From positions 3,224,001 through 3,288,000 of the forward strand of contig CP115858.1 in NCBI GenBank assembly GCA_027920525.1: a DNA stretch of 64,000 nt, written 5' to 3'. Made by a program: the position numbers and the translations under genes. This DNA is from Chryseobacterium daecheongense (GTDB lineage: Bacteria; Bacteroidota; Bacteroidia; Flavobacteriales; Weeksellaceae). Positions 6,447-11,981 of the stretch are shown here, in pieces. The notes below the pieces were generated by a model. That model was not told the origin of the DNA, searched no databases, and saw only the letters and a list, made by a program, of their open reading frames with translations. How positions within the stretch are numbered: position 1 is the stretch's first letter; every line of letters starts with the position of its first letter.

Positions 6447-7367
6447 TTAGTCTTCCAGATAGCTGTTTAATGATTCTTTCAGATGATTGCGGATTTCATC
6501 AACTAAAGATTTAGGTTCAAGGACTTTTACCTCTTTTCCGTAAGAAAGGATTTCCTGCATAAAATCATAAGTAGGATGCAAAAAGAACTCAAAGTATATA
6601 TCTTCAGGAGTTTCTTTAATCTCATTTTGAGATTGGTGAAGCGGAAAACTTTTGATATATTCTCCCTGATGACGTGAGCATTTCAATGTAATTTTCTGAG
6701 GTTTTTGTTCTGTTAAATTCATAACCCCGAATGCATTTTTAAAATATTCTCGGAAGTTATAACGATATTTTTCCCGGAATTTGGTCTTACTTACATCCAG
6801 ATAATTGATCCGGTCCAGTCCAAACGATTTAAGTGCTTTATCATTGGTATCTATAGCAATGAGATACCATCTGCCTTTAGATTCTTTTAATGCTAAAGGG
6901 TGTACTTTTCTTGATGTCATAACTTTATTTTTGTAATTGTAATGTTCAAAAGAAACGACACGTTTATTACGAATGGCAAAGAAAAGATCATAGAAATGCT
7001 CTACACCCGTTGGTTTTCGGGATTCAAAAAAGATGTACCCTGAAAAATCCGGATGAACATTTAAAGCATTACTTACCTGAAAGGATTCCAGGAGTTTCTG
7101 GTTATACTCATCCACTTCCATCGTTGGACGGCTTTCTATATAATAACGGTTATCACCTTTCTTCTTATTATGGATAGAAAGGTTAAAAAGATCAGATATC
7201 TCACGGATATCCCTCTGAAGAGTACGGATGGAGTAACTCTTAATATCAGCGTCCTGAAATTCAAAAGAATTTAAAAGATAATCTTCCAGCTGAGAATAGG
7301 TCGCAGGAGCACTTTCTAATTTTTTAATAATCAGAGCATATCTTGTTAAGTAAAAATCTTTTTTCAT
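6447..7367 (-). CDS. WYL-domain transcriptional regulator
   Basis: A 306-residue protein with an N-terminal winged helix (about 1-80; SIRTLQRDIREISDLFNL is the recognition-helix region), a WYL domain (about 125-205; RKVHPLALKESKGRWYLIAID) and a C-terminal WCX-type extension (about 220-300). WYL domains sense ligands, including nucleic acids and nucleotides, and control phage-defence genes (CapW, BrxR) or DNA-damage genes (PafBC, DriD). Its own promoter carries the same inverted repeat and TAnnTTTG arrangement (7448-7481) as the four units that follow upstream on this strand. It is therefore the best candidate to bind those sites and to regulate itself. Whether it activates or represses is not shown. 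Confidence 0.9.
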   Translation of the reverse strand: MKKDFYLTRYALIIKKLESAPATYSQLEDYLLNSFEFQDADIKSYSIRTLQRDIREISDLFNLSIHNKKKGDNRYYIESRPTMEVDEYNQKLLESFQVSNALNVHPDFSGYIFFESRKPTGVEHFYDLFFAIRNKRVVSFEHYNYKNKVMTSRKVHPLALKESKGRWYLIAIDTNDKALKSFGLDRINYLDVSKTKFREKYRYNFREYFKNAFGVMNLTEQKPQKITLKCSRHQGEYIKSFPLHQSQNEIKETPEDIYFEFFLHPTYDFMQEILSYGKEVKVLEPKSLVDEIRNHLKESLNSYLED

Positions 7368-7447: not shown

Positions 7448-7481
7448 CAAATATATGCTCTTAATGCGACAAAAAATGTCG
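7448..7481 (-). promoter_or_regulatory. WYL-regulon promoter module A (regulator gene)
   Basis: The inverted repeat CGACA-5-TGTCG occupies 7467-7481. Eleven bases separate it from TATATTTG (minus strand, plus 7448-7455), a perfect TAnnTTTG -7 box. The start codon of the WYL gene is 80 bases downstream. This is the most symmetric of the five copies. Confidence 0.85.
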
Positions 7482-7540
7482 TATTTTTGTTTTTTTTAAT
7501 TGAGTTTCTGGAATCATTTCTTTCTGAACGCTAAAAAGGT

Positions 7541-7622
7541 AAAAAGTTCCGGCTATCCAATAATGATGATTGGTGTTTAAAAGGTATTATGGAGCTGTGA
7601 GATTATCAGATAGCAACGGAAC
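7541..7622 (-). terminator. Structured 3' end of the acidic-protein transcript (possible terminator)
   Basis: On the minus strand GTTCCG and CTATC (7609-7622) can pair with GATAG and CGGAAC (7546-7557), enclosing about 50 bases. A run of five T (7541-7545) follows. The long loop makes it an unusual terminator, but it sits just after the stop codon of the small acidic gene and before the regulator's promoter, where one is needed. Confidence 0.5.
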
Positions 7623-7639
7623 TTCATAACTAACAAGGT

Positions 7640-7813
7640 TTATAAATAAATATCGTCTTCGAGGATCTCATTCTCAAAATCTTCTTTGAAAAAGAGCTCA
7701 ATATCATTGAGATAGTTTTCATAATCTATCTCCACATTTTCGATGTCACTCCACTCTATAGTGTAGAGATCGGTATCAAAAGTTATATCTGGATTGTGAT
7801 TTGGTGTTTCCAT
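7640..7813 (-). CDS. Small highly acidic protein, 57 aa, unknown function
   Basis: Starting at the ATG at 7813 (METPNHNPDI), the product has 57 residues, of which 19 are Asp or Glu, with one Lys and no Arg. A longer frame opens at 7930, but that start lies inside the -7 box of promoter module B, so it could not be translated from this promoter; 7813 fits a leader of about 105 bases. The aromatic and aliphatic residues alternate with acids (YTIEWSDIENVEIDYENYL), giving an amphipathic, strongly negative protein. I know no family. Such charge is found in DNA mimics, antitoxins and immunity proteins, but that is only a comparison. It belongs to the WYL regulon by its promoter. Confidence 0.65.
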   Translation of the reverse strand: METPNHNPDITFDTDLYTIEWSDIENVEIDYENYLNDIELFFKEDFENEILEDDIYL

Positions 7814-7927
7814 GTCGTGTGTTTTAAAGATTGAACATATTTTAGGCTGTTCAGCATTAATTAATGTTGAATTCAATGGCTTTTGAAAGTTTTTAAAGAT
7901 TGTTTTTTTGTGCCTTGGTCTATGATT

Positions 7928-7961
7928 CAAAAGTAGAAAGAGGGGACGACAAAACTTGACG
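7928..7961 (-). promoter_or_regulatory. WYL-regulon promoter module B (small acidic gene)
   Basis: On the minus strand CGTCA-AGTTT-TGTCG (7947-7961) is followed after 11 bases by TACTTTTG (7928-7935). The spacing is identical to the other four modules. It excludes 7930 as the start of the gene it serves. Confidence 0.85.
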
Positions 7962-7967
7962 TATTAA

Positions 7968-8000
7968 AAAAAATAACTCAAAAAATTGAGCTATTTTTTA
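7968..8000 (-). terminator. Terminator of the DUF2589 operon
   Basis: An 11-bp stem with one mismatch (7971-7981 with 7986-7996) and a four-base loop, ending in a run of T on the minus strand. It separates the end of the three-gene operon (8003) from promoter module B (7961), so the small acidic gene is its own unit. Confidence 0.8.
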
Positions 8001-8002
8001 GA

Positions 8003-8560
8003 TTAGGAAAAATCTTCAAGATCTATTTCATCGGCAATCAGCATACTAATGTCCATCTCTGAAAGCATTGATTTAAGTTTGATTCCTCCGGGTTTTAGGT
8101 CCGCATCGGAAAGGATATACCACCACACTTTTTGAACAAAATCATTGAAGTCTATTTCCTTGGTATACTGCAGTCCTTTTTTTTGTGCTGTTATGGTAAG
8201 TATCTGTTTTGTGATGTCCCTGCACTCATTCATTTTCCCTTCGTGAGGTGCTAAAACCTGAATTACACAGTTTTGTACATCATACAGAAGGTTGGCTGCA
8301 ATTTTTATCTGGTTTTTCTTTGTGTTAAAACCTCTTTCATCACTGTATTTAGCTGCCAGAATTTTACTTCTGAATCCTGCAATTTCAGAAACCTCACTGA
8401 TATTATTATGGGAAAAAATCTCTTCTACAGACTTTAGCCATGATAATGTTTTTTCAATAAAGAAAGGTTCCTTTTTTTCTAATGCAGTAACGATCACAGG
8501 AAACTCCTGAAGATTATCCTTTAACTGGGATACCAGAATGAATTGTGATTTCTTTACCAT
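8003..8560 (-). CDS. Unknown protein, third gene of DUF2589 operon
   Basis: A 185-residue soluble protein without signal peptide or membrane segment, predicted mainly helical. I recognise no family. It carries a Trp-rich central motif (FVQKVWWYILSDADLKPGG) and an acidic C-terminus (ADEIDLEDFS). It starts one base after the stop of the upstream gene, so the two are tightly coupled. The unit continues from the DUF2589 gene at 9885 and ends at the hairpin at 7968-8000. Its place in the operon suggests it works with the two DUF2589-type proteins. Confidence 0.75.
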   Translation of the reverse strand: MVKKSQFILVSQLKDNLQEFPVIVTALEKKEPFFIEKTLSWLKSVEEIFSHNNISEVSEIAGFRSKILAAKYSDERGFNTKKNQIKIAANLLYDVQNCVIQVLAPHEGKMNECRDITKQILTITAQKKGLQYTKEIDFNDFVQKVWWYILSDADLKPGGIKLKSMLSEMDISMLIADEIDLEDFS

Positions 8561-8561
8561 A

Positions 8562-9245
8562 TTATTCAGGAATTAAGGTTTCTATAATATTTCCGTTAAT
8601 GTCTTCATATCTGGACCATTCCATTCCTGCTTCACTTACACTCATTTTAGCATAGATCAGGCATTTTGCATCCAGTTCCATCAGTCTACTTGCTTCCACA
8701 ATAATTTCGTAATCGTCGATCTTTTCTATGATTTTCCTTGCTTCCCGAACAACTCTGTTCAGGATACTCTGCTGGAAAAACTGAGGATCTGTTTGCCTCC
8801 AGCTGAAATTGGGCAACGACTGACAGAATTCCAGTGTATATTTGGGAATTGTATCAAAATATTGTATTTGTGAATCGGTAATGATAGAAGTATTATCGTC
8901 TTGTATTTTTTTGATAGCATCATTATAATAAACTTCAAGATCCACCAGAAAAGCCCTCAGGCTTTGATCGCTTTTAATATCGGAAGGATTGTAATTGGTC
9001 TTAGCTATTTTAATAATCTCGTCGTAAGCAAAATCTCTAAAGGCCATGATGGGTGAATTGCCTGCCGTAGCGAAAGGTATTGTAAGATCTACAGTTCCGA
9101 CTTTCATTCTTGGAATGGAAAAATGTTTCAGTAGGTCGTCTTGTGCGTATTCTTTTGCAATCTGTACTGTTTGGAGGTCTGCCATTTTTCTGGCAGAAGC
9201 AATTTCAGAAACAATTCCTCCCAAATATTCATTCAATTTTGGCAT
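8562..9245 (-). CDS. DUF2589-like protein (divergent)
   Basis: A 227-residue soluble protein with no signal peptide. Its first 80 residues follow the same plan as the DUF2589 protein encoded upstream: a short hydrophobic start with GG (NEYLGGIVSEIASARKMADLQ), a helix, then IPRMKVGTVDLTIPFATA. That last stretch resembles IPALRIDEMTIDFNA of the neighbour. The rest is helical with two Tyr/Trp-rich segments and is not recognised. I infer a diverged relative of DUF2589. It lies 67 bases downstream of that gene, behind a 24-base perfect palindrome that may reduce its expression relative to the first gene. Confidence 0.65.
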   Translation of the reverse strand: MPKLNEYLGGIVSEIASARKMADLQTVQIAKEYAQDDLLKHFSIPRMKVGTVDLTIPFATAGNSPIMAFRDFAYDEIIKIAKTNYNPSDIKSDQSLRAFLVDLEVYYNDAIKKIQDDNTSIITDSQIQYFDTIPKYTLEFCQSLPNFSWRQTDPQFFQQSILNRVVREARKIIEKIDDYEIIVEASRLMELDAKCLIYAKMSVSEAGMEWSRYEDINGNIIETLIPE

Positions 9246-9276
9246 GATAAGTTTTTTATATTTAAAAGTTTAAAAG

Positions 9277-9300
9277 AGATGGCTGCCCGGGCAGCCATCT
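9277..9300. repeat. 24-base perfect palindrome inside the DUF2589 operon
   Basis: AGATGGCTGCCC (9277-9288) is followed directly by its reverse complement. In RNA it makes a strong GC-rich hairpin between the first and second operon genes, followed on the minus strand by CTTTTAAACTTTT, a weak U tract. It could act as a leaky terminator or an RNA-stability element that lets the first gene be made in excess. Confidence 0.8.
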
Positions 9301-9312
9301 GAATAAATGAGA

Positions 9313-9885
9313 TTAAGCAGTTGGTGCAGCAGCATTAGCTACAATAGCATCTTCCAGCATGTCCATAATCTTTGCAAGACCGGCAGGTAGTTCATCATTT
9401 ACAGCTTTTACATGTACTCCCAACGTATATGTTTTTTCTGTGGTAGAAGTACTTGAAGTAGTCTTCTTATAAGCAGCTGAAGCGTTGAATTTTACTTTCC
9501 AGATTTTTGCACTTATGGATGCACTTCCGGAAAACTCACTTGAAGCAGACTGTGTTTCTACTGAATTTAATTTTGCGTTAAAATCAATGGTCATTTCATC
9601 GATTCTCAAAGCCGGAATCGTAAGCATGGAAAGAAAAGGCACCTGTAAGGTAACTTCAGACTGTGTCACCGTATCATTTGCACCAGGTACGGATTTCTTA
9701 TATTTGAAATCTACATATCTTAGCTCTTTTGCTTTAGGGTGTCCTTCCGGATAGAACCCGACTTCTTTGATGAAATCCACTTGTGAAATAGAGGCATCAT
9801 GTTGAGCTTTAATGGCTGCTTGCATCGGTCCTCCGATATAAACACTGAAATCCAAACTGTTTAATTCTTGTACTAAATTTGCCAT
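9313..9885 (-). CDS. DUF2589 domain-containing protein
   Basis: A 190-residue protein matching the DUF2589 family as I know it: an N-terminal IGGPMQAAIKAQHDAS helix, a strand-rich centre with VTLQVPFLSMLTIPALRIDEMTIDFNAKL, a Ser/Thr/Ala-rich segment (about 110-150, SASSEFSGSASISAK and TTSSTSTTEKTYTL), and a helical end (LPAGLAKIMDMLEDAIVANAA). No signal peptide or membrane segment is present. The family has no established function. It is the first gene of a three-gene operon under promoter module C with a leader of about 185 bases. Its compact beta-rich, low-complexity make-up would suit a self-associating structural protein, which is inference only. Confidence 0.82.
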   Translation of the reverse strand: MANLVQELNSLDFSVYIGGPMQAAIKAQHDASISQVDFIKEVGFYPEGHPKAKELRYVDFKYKKSVPGANDTVTQSEVTLQVPFLSMLTIPALRIDEMTIDFNAKLNSVETQSASSEFSGSASISAKIWKVKFNASAAYKKTTSSTSTTEKTYTLGVHVKAVNDELPAGLAKIMDMLEDAIVANAAAPTA

Positions 9886-10075
9886 AATTTAAAATTGTTA
9901 AGGTTATTAATTGGTTAATAATATATAGTAGTGCTAGCAGACTAATATTCTATAGGTAATACATATCCTGGCTCAGTTTTCATAAACTGAAACTAAAAAC
10001 GGATTAAAATTAATAGGGATATTTTAGGGTTGAAGCAGTTTGTTTGCTTTGGCTTCCCTGGTTATTTTGTTATTT

Positions 10076-10109
10076 CAAAGATAATTAGTTGTGGCGTCAA
10101 AACTCGTCG
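10076..10109 (-). promoter_or_regulatory. WYL-regulon promoter module C (DUF2589 operon)
   Basis: On the minus strand CGACG-AGTTT-TGACG (10095-10109), then 11 bases, then TATCTTTG (10076-10083). It lies in the 307-base gap 9886-10192, which otherwise holds the operon leader and the twin palindromes at 10150-10198. No other gene is visible in that gap. Confidence 0.85.
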
Positions 10110-10149
10110 TGTTATAAAATGTTTCTGTTGAGAACAAATATTTATCTAT

Positions 10150-10198
10150 ATAAGCTTTAAAGCTTATTATCATATCATATAAGCTTAAAAGCTTATAT
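10150..10198 (-). repeat. Tandem AT-rich palindromes at the end of the patatin gene
   Basis: Two near-identical palindromes lie nine bases apart: ATAAGCTTTAAAGCTTAT (10150-10167) and a 22-base one built on ATATAAGCTT with its complement (10177-10198). The second overlaps the last codons and stop of the patatin gene. They form weak hairpins without a U tract. They could be a transcription end, an RNA-processing site or a protein-binding site. Confidence 0.7.
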
Positions 10199-11230
10199 TT
10201 TGTTTTTAATGAGCTTCTGTACAATTTGATTTAATGTTTCTCTGTTATCATCAATATAGCTCAATCCAGCCTGGATCAGATTTTCAATATTCGAACGTCT
10301 TACGTTATCCATAGCCGGAGATGCATTCTTTAATGAAGGATTGATACGATAATAATTTTTTTGATTTCTTAACCCTAATGTCTGAAACATCTGACATAAC
10401 TGATAATCTACGGTTTCTGCATTCGCAGACATCAGAATGTCAATTATAGGAGTTACCCAGCCGATTTTTCCTGCTTTTTCCAGTTTTTTGAAAGAATAAC
10501 TTCGGGATTCAATCCCGGTCCCTATTGATACGATAATCATATCATTAACAGTGGGATGGTTGGCTTTCTGGTGATTTTTCAATACTTCGGCAAAAGGAAT
10601 TTTTCTTGCTTCGGCATACGCACAAAGTGCAGGATTGTTGGCGAACATCCCTCCGTCAATAAGGCTGAAAAGCTGTCCGTACATCGATTTTATCTGGACC
10701 GGACTAAAATAGGTGGGTGCCGCCGAAGTTGCCCTGCAAACATCTTTTACATAAAAATTATCAGTACTTAGGCTGGCTTCCCATGAATTAAAAAGTTTAG
10801 CTCTTCTGTTTTCTATATCATAGCTGGTAATTAAGCATGGTTTTATCAATTCCTTTAATTCAAGATGTCCAAAAAAATCATTCAGATTTTTCTCAAGTGC
10901 TTCCTGAGAAATCTTCTCATTAATCAATCCAAAAGGGTTTACAAGTTTCTCCCAAAAAGAAACCTGGAATATGTTACCCCCCTTTTCAGCATACAGCTCT
11001 AACCCCTTTTGAATAGAGTATTTGGCTTTTCGATGTTCATCGGGACATAAAATAATTGAAGCGATTAGTCCTCCCGTGCTGCTTCCTGCTACCAAATCAA
11101 AATAATCTCCAAGTTTTGCATTGGGCTTATCATAATATTGGAGCTGCTCTTCTATATAGCGTAAAATAATACAGGTGATAATGCCTCTTATTCCGCCGCC
11201 GTCTAAAGAAAGAATGGTTGTCTTTTTCAT
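10193..11230 (-). CDS. Patatin-like phospholipase
   Basis: A 345-residue patatin-family lipid acyl hydrolase with the full catalytic signature. The oxyanion loop is DGGGIRG (10-16), the nucleophile Ser51 lies in GSSTGG (49-54, GxSxG), and the catalytic Asp192 lies in DGGMFANNPA. There is no signal peptide, so it would act on the inner membrane from the cytosol. Related patatins are membrane-degrading effectors in anti-phage systems (CapV of CBASS), but no CD-NTase gene lies in this window. Expression is from promoter module D with a leader of about 125 bases. It is flanked by the DUF2589 operon and the M15 peptidase gene, all in one orientation. Confidence 0.93.
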   Translation of the reverse strand: MKKTTILSLDGGGIRGIITCIILRYIEEQLQYYDKPNAKLGDYFDLVAGSSTGGLIASIILCPDEHRKAKYSIQKGLELYAEKGGNIFQVSFWEKLVNPFGLINEKISQEALEKNLNDFFGHLELKELIKPCLITSYDIENRRAKLFNSWEASLSTDNFYVKDVCRATSAAPTYFSPVQIKSMYGQLFSLIDGGMFANNPALCAYAEARKIPFAEVLKNHQKANHPTVNDMIIVSIGTGIESRSYSFKKLEKAGKIGWVTPIIDILMSANAETVDYQLCQMFQTLGLRNQKNYYRINPSLKNASPAMDNVRRSNIENLIQAGLSYIDDNRETLNQIVQKLIKNKI

Positions 11231-11357
11231 TTGTTGATATTAATTGTTAATAGAACACTTACAATCTTTAATATTCAAAACCATGGGTCATTCTTCGGGA
11301 TAAAACAATTTTTTTTATCATGCAGACTTTGTTTGCTTTTGTTGTTTTCTTGTAAAG

Positions 11358-11391
11358 TAAAGATAGGCGGAAAAAGCGACAGAACTTGTCG
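11358..11391 (-). promoter_or_regulatory. WYL-regulon promoter module D (patatin gene)
   Basis: On the minus strand CGACA-AGTTC-TGTCG (11377-11391; perfect five-base arms), 11 bases, then TATCTTTA (11358-11365), which has one mismatch to TAnnTTTG. The upstream flank TTATAATA is shared with module B in part. Confidence 0.83.
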
Positions 11392-11418
11392 TATTATAAT
11401 TATTTTCAATAAAAAAGA

Positions 11419-11919
11419 TTAAAAAATAATATATCCGGCTTTGTCCCTTGCCATTTTAGAAAGGGTTTTCCAGGTGGTTTTTACAAGCCCTTTTTGGGTT
11501 GGAAAATTCTTTTTTTCGAAGTGAGGAAGGTCTTTAAACGTTTTCCAGTTTCCTCCCCAATCCCAGCCGTGCTTCGCGAAAATTTTGACACATTCATACC
11601 AGTCTGCTATTCCGTCATTATCCCAGTCTTTTGCAGTGTCCCAGCTTGCTGTTTTCCCATCTATCATCAAACAAATATCCACCGCCAAACCATAATTGTG
11701 GATACTTTGTCCGGCTTTGGCATTGGTCACTTTTTTTCCGGAGGTAATTCGTCCTATTGCATAGAGCTTTTCCTGTTCTTCAAAGGACCGTAAACCTTGC
11801 GTAATTCTTACTTTTGCTCTTCCGGTGAGGGCTTCGTCACATTCTTTAATGATTTGCTTTACTTCCGCTCTTACCAGAGGGTGAAGTTTTTCTATTCTTT
11901 CTAAGGTCACTTTATCCAT
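11419..11919 (-). CDS. M15-family peptidoglycan peptidase (endolysin-like)
   Basis: A 166-residue single-domain M15 zinc peptidase. Ser72-Ile-His74-Asn-Tyr-Gly-Leu-Ala-Val-Asp81 is the SxHxxGxAxD zinc motif and His133 (LPHFE) supplies the third ligand. RITQGLRSFEEQEKLYA is the conserved early strand and loop. It most resembles L-alanyl-D-glutamate endopeptidases of phage lysis type rather than the larger VanY proteins. There is no signal peptide or membrane anchor, so like a phage endolysin it would need help to reach the cell wall. It has its own promoter module E with a short leader of about 25 bases. Confidence 0.92.
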   Translation of the reverse strand: MDKVTLERIEKLHPLVRAEVKQIIKECDEALTGRAKVRITQGLRSFEEQEKLYAIGRITSGKKVTNAKAGQSIHNYGLAVDICLMIDGKTASWDTAKDWDNDGIADWYECVKIFAKHGWDWGGNWKTFKDLPHFEKKNFPTQKGLVKTTWKTLSKMARDKAGYIIF

Positions 11920-11947
11920 AATTACAAAATTTAGTCTTTTTAGAAAA

Positions 11948-11981
11948 CAAAAGTAGATATGGATAGCGCCAAAACTTGACG
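11948..11981 (-). promoter_or_regulatory. WYL-regulon promoter module E (M15 peptidase gene)
   Basis: On the minus strand CGTCA-AGTTT-TGGCG (11967-11981), 11 bases, then TACTTTTG (11948-11955). It is the last copy I find; the region beyond, up to 12110, holds no further copy and no gene. Confidence 0.84.

Follow-up and report, generated by a model that had tools for sequence, protein, structure and literature searches.

A 34-bp promoter module in Chryseobacterium daecheongense and the WYL-domain protein that probably reads it

We describe a 34-bp promoter module that occurs five times in a 64,000-nucleotide stretch of Chryseobacterium daecheongense DNA (GenBank assembly GCA_027920525.1, contig CP115858.1, positions 3,224,001 to 3,288,000; this whole stretch is referred to below as the window). 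In each copy a 15-bp palindrome is followed, after exactly 11 bp, by a box of the form TAnnTTTG or a close variant, and one copy precedes the gene of a WYL-domain regulator. The best overall explanation, which we consider probable, is that the module is an activator-requiring promoter read by a homodimer of this regulator. The WYL-WCX dimer (gene at 6447-7367) would bind CGNC-N7-GNCG at about -38 to -24 and there cover the position of the -33 element. Much as DriD does, and PafBC by sigma adaptation, it would present RNA polymerase to the TAnnTTTG box that follows at exactly 11 bp. It would activate its own gene, in a positive loop, along with a regulon. The constant core of that regulon would be a patatin-like phospholipase resembling effectors of cyclic oligonucleotide-based antiphage signalling systems (CBASS) and, in most genomes, an M15 peptidase resembling endolysins. 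Its variable part would comprise DUF2589 gene rows, RHS/DUF6443 clusters with type IX secretion tails, BspA-like and tailspike-like proteins, genes of unknown function and, in distant relatives, GmrSD/DUF262 operons. Such a regulon may act in lysis and conflict.

Modules in the window and in the genome

The pattern CGNCRNNNNNTGNCG-N11-TANNTTTR (the module being CGNCR-N5-TGNCG-N11-TAnnTTTR) was scanned over both strands of the 64-kb window and matched exactly five times, always on the minus strand; 100 dinucleotide shuffles yielded no match. The palindrome alone gave nine strand-wise matches, all at the five module places, where 0.47 were expected. These are the five positions, and the strand, named in an earlier annotation made from the letters alone (the original prediction), and the 11-bp spacer it described is the same in all five. 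Its letters were right overall, except that the first arm at 10076 is CGACG rather than CGACA and that the box at 11358 is TATCTTTA, ending in TTTA. Its further statement that each module heads a transcription unit agrees with the predicted open reading frames (ORFs). The modules and the genes that they would serve are:

7448..7481, minus strand: module 1, CGACATTTTTTGTCG-N11-TATATTTG; promoter of the WYL gene
7928..7961, minus strand: module 2, CGTCAAGTTTTGTCG-N11-TACTTTTG; upstream of the small ORF
10076..10109, minus strand: module 3, CGACGAGTTTTGACG-N11-TATCTTTG; upstream of the DUF2589 operon
11358..11391, minus strand: module 4, CGACAAGTTCTGTCG-N11-TATCTTTA; upstream of the patatin gene
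11948..11981, minus strand: module 5, CGTCAAGTTTTGGCG-N11-TACTTTTG; upstream of the M15 peptidase gene
6447..7367, minus strand: WYL+WCX transcription regulator, 306 amino acids (Pfam WYL 1.4e-14, WCX 8.3e-10)
7640..7930, minus strand: small acidic ORF, up to 96 amino acids (57 from an internal ATG at 7813)
9313..9885, minus strand: DUF2589 protein, first gene of a three-gene row (PF11655, 1.4e-32)
8562..9245, minus strand: second gene of the row, 227 amino acids, no family match
8003..8560, minus strand: third gene of the row, 185 amino acids, no family match
10193..11230, minus strand: patatin-like phospholipase, CBASS-effector-like, 345 amino acids (PF01734, 4.1e-26)
11419..11919, minus strand: M15 peptidase, phage-endolysin-like, 166 amino acids (PF13539, 8.2e-19; PHROG endolysin, 2.8e-30)

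Across the 4.86-Mb genome, the oriented 15-mer CGWCRMGTTYTGDCG had eight exact matches and its reversed control none, and TAnnTTT stood at N11 behind all eight. A search with one mismatch was noisy (13 real matches against 10 in the control), and only matches with the box were counted; it added five matches, three with the box at N11 (L010, L012 and L013; G, L and g numbers denote genomes, fetched loci and genera, respectively) and two without. The genome thus holds 12 sites of this form (eight, three, and the WYL gene's own), though more divergent sites would escape such a search. Seven of the 12 lie outside the island in the window, so that the module is not confined to it. The original prediction had called for a genome-wide scan of this kind; with about 12 sites in 4.86 Mb, frequent occurrence at unrelated genes was not clearly seen. 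By target, five of the sites belong to lysis-like, secreted or RHS genes, one to the regulator, one to a RibD_C reductase and five to genes of unknown function.

Promoter geometry

In a census of 280 non-redundant oriented palindromes from fetched loci (five out-of-family hits and one 10-base locus were left out), 230 had TAnnTTTG at offset 11, and this exact box was seen at none of the other offsets between 0 and 23. When one-off boxes such as GATATTTG were included, 272 of the 280 had a box at offset 11; boxes of this looser kind occurred elsewhere too, 41 of them at offset 16. A wider pattern on both strands (n = 627) gave exact boxes at offset 11 in 266 cases, at 5 in 25, at 0 in two and at 17 in two, those at offset 5 being mostly WYL promoters seen from the opposite strand. 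Loci picked by the palindrome alone had the box at N11 in 23 of 31 cases within the genus, a count that leaves aside the one-mismatch loci, L060, L061 (box present in both) and L074, and in none of five cases outside the family.

An A five bases past the box is conserved in 86% and may be the +1 position, which would place the palindrome at -38 to -24 and its TTGTC at -29 to -25. The bases preceding the first arm are mostly AATA or AACA. The original prediction had remarked that the TTTTG of the repeat lies 14 bases from the box, closer than usual for the phylum. An excess at the longer spacing was seen, weakly (TTG-N20 14 times against 6.6 expected; TTG-N14 21 times, about 12 of them from one orthologous Y-family polymerase promoter), so that the comparison with a usual spacing rests on the literature. 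Because the spacing to the box is fixed, activation is a better reading than repression, in line with the activator-dependent promoter suggested by the original prediction.

The WYL protein as reader

A site was found upstream of the WYL gene in all 30 genus loci first fetched, that of C. daecheongense included. In a larger set of 80 named WYL loci (the best 80 of 270 relatives, some from the same genomes as before; 78 of the loci are titled Chryseobacterium), a perfect site, CGACA-N5-TGTCG, preceded the gene every time; both arms were invariant, the centre positions varied, and the first bases of the spacer were also nearly constant.

The sites also track the protein from genome to genome. 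The same 256 family genomes were searched for the WYL protein (an orthologue having E below 1e-100) and for the palindrome; the numbers are raw genome counts, uncorrected for phylogeny. Within the genus, 107 of 109 genomes have the orthologue and at least two palindromes, and the other two (G083 and G297) have neither. Outside the genus, at least two palindromes were present in 17 of 22 genomes with the orthologue as compared to 3 of 125 without, and at least one in 18 of 22 as compared to 12 of 125. Genera of mixed content gave the same picture: palindromes numbered 1-10 with the WYL gene and 0-2 without in g39, 2-7 and 0 in g41, and 9-13 and 0 in g53. Four WYL-bearing genomes without a strict match (G163, G213, G274 and G233) carry variant sites at the WYL gene or its neighbours, and in a set of 20 WYL neighbourhoods a site lay within 330 bp of the gene in 15.

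More distant proteins extend the association. Among the other five of these neighbourhoods, WYL proteins 35-36% identical to ours end longer gene rows in G172 and G041; two GmrSD_N genes belong to the row in L142, and an AAA gene to that in L143. At or near the head of these rows stand CGACACGTTTTGGCG-N11-TACTTTTG and CGACATGTTTTGTCG-N11-TATGTTTG. Two Hymenobacter plasmids (WYL proteins 33-35% identical) bear CGACATGTTTTGTCG-N11-CACTTTCG and CGACAGATTTTGTCG-N11-CACCTTCG upstream of the WYL operon, with DUF262 genes following; about 0.02 perfect palindromes per locus would be expected there by chance. Five plasmid-borne loci were examined in all, and the other three (C. balustinum, C. oryzae and Adhaeribacter) showed no site. 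Very probably it is the WYL protein that acts as regulator at these sites. The original prediction had it bind them, a proposal supported, through comparative genomics, by the 80 autoregulatory sites, the co-occurrence, and the reach to Hymenobacter.

Several WYL loci had features of their own. In Hymenobacter monticola a gene annotated as a sigma factor (L351:7445-7768) sits between the site and the WYL gene. Beside the intact gene of G012 there is a second WYL-type promoter site with a 44-amino-acid stretch 89% like the WYL start (L106:3275-6027), a sign that regulator and site were partly duplicated not long ago. In G163 the WYL frame (L139:9669-10580) contains one TGA, a real loss or a sequencing error, behind an intact promoter site. 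In 14 of the 80 WYL promoters, though not in the window, TTATCCACA, which we take to be the 9-mer of a DnaA box, precedes the palindrome by exactly 11 bp, against 0.06 expected (the relatives are not independent); it was found at that place in none of 121 target sites.

Target genes

Twenty islands fetched from the genus were compared by ORF clustering and family scans. The patatin gene was present in 19, the M15 gene in 19, homologues of the small ORF in 11 (by ORF clustering) and the DUF2589 gene in three; a family of 1.2 thousand amino acids (1.2 kaa) without Pfam match was present in 14, and a family with BspA-type repeats (one member scanned) in 11. Sites were then scored per gene by tblastn, using only copies with enough upstream DNA, in island and named-locus sets that overlap. 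Sites stood ahead of the patatin gene in all 19 islands, all 24 named loci and five of seven loci from other genera, and ahead of the M15 gene in all 19, all 21 and all five, respectively. The small ORF had one in all 16 of its island copies and in 16 of the 17 from named loci, and the DUF2589 gene in all three islands and in 10 of the 11 named loci scored. Neither the second nor the third gene of the DUF2589 row had a site of its own (0 of 14 each, 0 of 28 together).

Outside the genus, a patatin orthologue was found in all 22 WYL-bearing genomes and in none of 24 genomes lacking WYL, the latter chosen from genera with WYL plus two more. It agrees with WYL in all 46 genomes searched, even when it lies on another contig. 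The M15 gene was found in 19 of the 22 (missing from G255, G119 and G274) and in none of the 24. As judged from gene content, the constant core is the WYL gene itself, the CBASS-like patatin and, nearly always, the endolysin-like M15 peptidase; the other targets vary.

The patatin scored 164 bits against the NCBIfam CBASS_lipase model, below its cut-off of 200, and 1.1e-61 against the PADLOC phospholipase effector. Because no obvious signal peptide was seen (by eye) in either protein, the patatin and the M15 peptidase may form a lysis pair that attacks first the membrane and then the wall. A phage origin of the patatin was considered and rejected; its relatives in the phage collection are less than 40% identical and come mostly from Wolbachia phages. 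PHROGs returned nothing for the DUF2589 protein and its two row partners, and the 72 C-terminal residues of the small ORF product matched nothing in Pfam, NCBIfam or PADLOC.

Elsewhere in the genome the sites precede the following genes:

L075: one site; DUF285 protein with a type IX sorting tail
L076: two sites separated by 132 bp, of which the closer one lies about 450 bp upstream of the start; 1144-amino-acid protein without family
L077: one site; 232-amino-acid protein without family
L078 and L079: one site each; two similar 541-amino-acid proteins with sorting tails, then large genes containing weak RHS repeats and, in one case, DUF6443
L080: one site; RibD_C protein

Genes headed by a site in other genomes encode right-handed beta-helix and tailspike-like proteins, further proteins of 500-560 amino acids like those preceding the RHS genes, together with many proteins that matched no family; most of the scanned cargo proteins had no Pfam match.

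Related regulators and alternative explanations

WYL activators have been worked out in few bacteria only. The closest to the present protein is DriD of Caulobacter crescentus, a WYL activator of an SOS-independent DNA damage response. Pfam and the AlphaFold2 model agree on a single chain of winged helix-turn-helix, WYL and WCX domains, as in DriD-type activators, with helices at residues 3-61 forming the N-terminus. Among the matches listed by Foldseek the DriD crystal structures were the best, with BrxR and PafBC tying there, and the DriD alignment was full-length (5-304). The DriD consensus, ATACGAC(X)7GTCGTAT, contains the core CGAC-N7-GTCG, identical in half-sites and spacing to the palindrome here, and has ATA in front of its first half; the DriD site also lies over -35 at one distance from the -10, the likeness being in the constancy of that distance. 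The differences are a 17-18% identity in the aligned fold, another phylum, another -10 box, an arginine replaced in the ligand loop, and a regulon (didA, bapE, recJ and dnaG) unlike the lysis-like, secreted and unknown genes found here.

The original prediction had pointed to PafBC of mycobacteria and other actinobacteria and missed DriD, the closer relative, but its analogy was sound. The printed PafBC consensus, tTGTCRgtg-8nt-TannnT, has exactly the TTGTC-N12-TAnnnT spacing of the module, the WYL-WCX domains are shared, and the recognition-helix arginines R46/R50 of PafBC correspond to R48/R52 here, likewise four residues apart. PafBC differs in being a heterodimer that controls DNA repair from a non-palindromic site, whereas the site here is a palindrome. 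No paired regulator genes were seen, each island having one WYL gene save for the G012 fragment; a second, unlinked WYL protein (about 24-32% identity) is present in the genus and might supply the partner of a heterodimer. SiwR of Mycobacterium smegmatis is a homodimeric WYL activator that responds to genotoxic stress at an imperfect palindrome between -10 and -35, but its palindrome is 19 bp long, its targets are neighbouring dinB-like genes, and its WYL domain has the arginine pair R204/R207. Because the half-sites and their spacing match the DriD operator core and TTGTC-N12-TA matches the PafBC geometry, we suggest by analogy that the reader is a DriD-like homodimeric activator. The two features together in Bacteroidota suggest an old, fixed way in which WYL proteins hand polymerase to a promoter.

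The alternative that survives best, though we think it unlikely, is that the WYL protein reads the sites as a repressor, like CapW or BrxR, and is released by a ligand during phage infection. CapW and BrxR are WYL regulators of phage defence acting on palindromes; CapW represses its CBASS promoter from such a palindrome until infection sets it free. In the present case the patatin is CBASS-like, and autoregulation is compatible with a repressor loop. CBASS itself differs in that no cGAS/DncV-like nucleotidyltransferase (CD-NTase) was found beside the patatin among the seven island proteins scanned with PADLOC. However, CapW (the only one of the two whose site position is known) represses from over the -10, whereas the present sites end 11 bp before the box, and a repressor needs no single exact spacing, whereas in the oriented set every one of the 230 exact boxes stands at N11. 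PafBC and DriD also outrank CapW and BrxR in profile search, and DriD crystals head the fold list, despite the tie with BrxR and PafBC.

Less probable still, to a marked degree, is that another regulator reads the palindrome, for instance a CI-like S24 'non-canonical LexA', and that the WYL gene is merely a target. According to PMC8565304, the SOS response of Bacteroidetes is run by S24 repressors on palindromic dyads with N5 spacing, with several paralogues in Weeksellaceae, and mitomycin induction has been demonstrated for S24 SOS in Elizabethkingia. However, the motifs given there (GGA-N5-TCC, CTAA-N5-TTAG and TTAC-N5-GTAA) differ from the module. Among 14 genomes searched, that of C. daecheongense has one weak S24 match, inside a 726-amino-acid frame; G223 and G126 carry both the motif and WYL without any S24 match, and G083 and G297 have S24 matches (four and three) without the motif. 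None of 27 S24 loci has the palindrome with TAnnTTT at N11, a few (e.g. L328) having a palindrome that lacks the box. S24 regulators, which neither track the motif in the 14 genomes nor show an N11 box in the 27 loci, were rejected as readers, as was canonical LexA, of which there is none in the searched genome.

We give almost no weight to a third alternative, a strong variant of the housekeeping promoter that needs no activator and in which TTTTG serves as a closely spaced -33 element. In its favour, the ordinary box is TAnnTTTG, TTG-N14 also occurs without a palindrome in the Y-family polymerase promoter family, and the spacer start is conserved too in WYL promoters. Against it, the first arm, needless for such a promoter, is kept in the 280 sites (which were found by palindrome) and in all 80 WYL promoters, and most close relatives that lack WYL also lack the sites.

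Trigger and function

For the DriD-like activator, the leading candidate for a trigger is single-stranded DNA arising after DNA damage or phage attack, a choice that we hold tentatively and at somewhat less than even confidence. It is favoured by the protein class, the absence of canonical LexA and of a clear S24 repressor, UmuC neighbours, and sites at two Y-family polymerase loci (L073 and L306, the only two such genes with one). Several observations weigh against it, and the response to DNA damage or phage in the original prediction remains conjectural. The recA promoter has no site, nor has the first type of Y-family polymerase in any of 18 genus loci, and no repair gene is found among the approximately 12 sites of the genome itself. 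Of the ligand signature of PafBC and SiwR, which has two arginines, only half is kept: the ligand loop reads FGLDR in place of an RxxR pair, with a glycine (G183) for one arginine and R186 as the other. In all, 30 Y-family loci were scanned and had no site: 18 of the first type, one of the second, and 11 of other families where none was expected. Of 20 second-type loci only L306 has a site, and in L310, L312 and L320 the site seems directed away from the polymerase gene.

A broader scenario, possible but on balance doubtful, is that a LexA-independent activator of the DriD kind, sensing single-stranded DNA, runs altruistic lysis on DNA damage or phage replication: a positive-feedback switch would turn on the phospholipase and endolysin that open the cell, and the changing secreted RHS and tailspike-like proteins would be released with it. 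If true, this would be an activator-based counterpart of the SOS-controlled colicins and pyocins. Control by the WYL protein would in any case give Chryseobacterium, whose searched genome has no canonical LexA or clear S24 SOS repressor, a defined regulon with exact promoters. It would also place genes of unknown function (DUF2589, RHS clusters and tailspike-like genes) under common control and predict which of them act together. A limited search of the literature on DUF2589, WYL domains and Elizabethkingia mitomycin transcriptomes, in sources partly available to us, found no earlier report of this regulon.

Two further observations concern polymerase genes. In 10 of the 20 islands (L107, L109-L112, L114, L115, L119, L121 and L122), a UmuC-type polymerase gene (PF00817, DUF4113) is divergent to the M15 gene or close by, and a palindrome precedes it by 108-138 bp. 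UmuC was not counted as a target, since this nearest palindrome is not followed, towards UmuC, by TAnnTTTG at N11, except for AATATTTG in L112. Promoters of the second Y-family polymerase type (L302-L319 and L344) have another layout, ACAAAT repeats with TTG-N14-TAATTTTG, which may be where another damage regulator acts.

Among the variable targets, the 1.2-kaa family without Pfam match (L105:7549-11283 and relatives) and its neighbour L123:10874-13267, which ends in a weak toxin-deaminase match, have a common N-terminal stretch like FTVGESLIGEGIINY, perhaps a shared delivery tag. Another group of targets, scattered over the genomes of relatives (L236:2179-4353, L255:1209-3386, L253, L247 and L232), resemble each other at their N-termini; two of these were scanned and gave weak beta-helix, phage depolymerase or head-fibre matches. 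Finally, a protein of 231-233 amino acids, without family match in the two members scanned, is a recurring target (L077:4901-5599, L067, L071, L236, L243, L255, L262 and L267); its box lies about 20 bp before the start codon, and it is a good candidate for a core member of the regulon.

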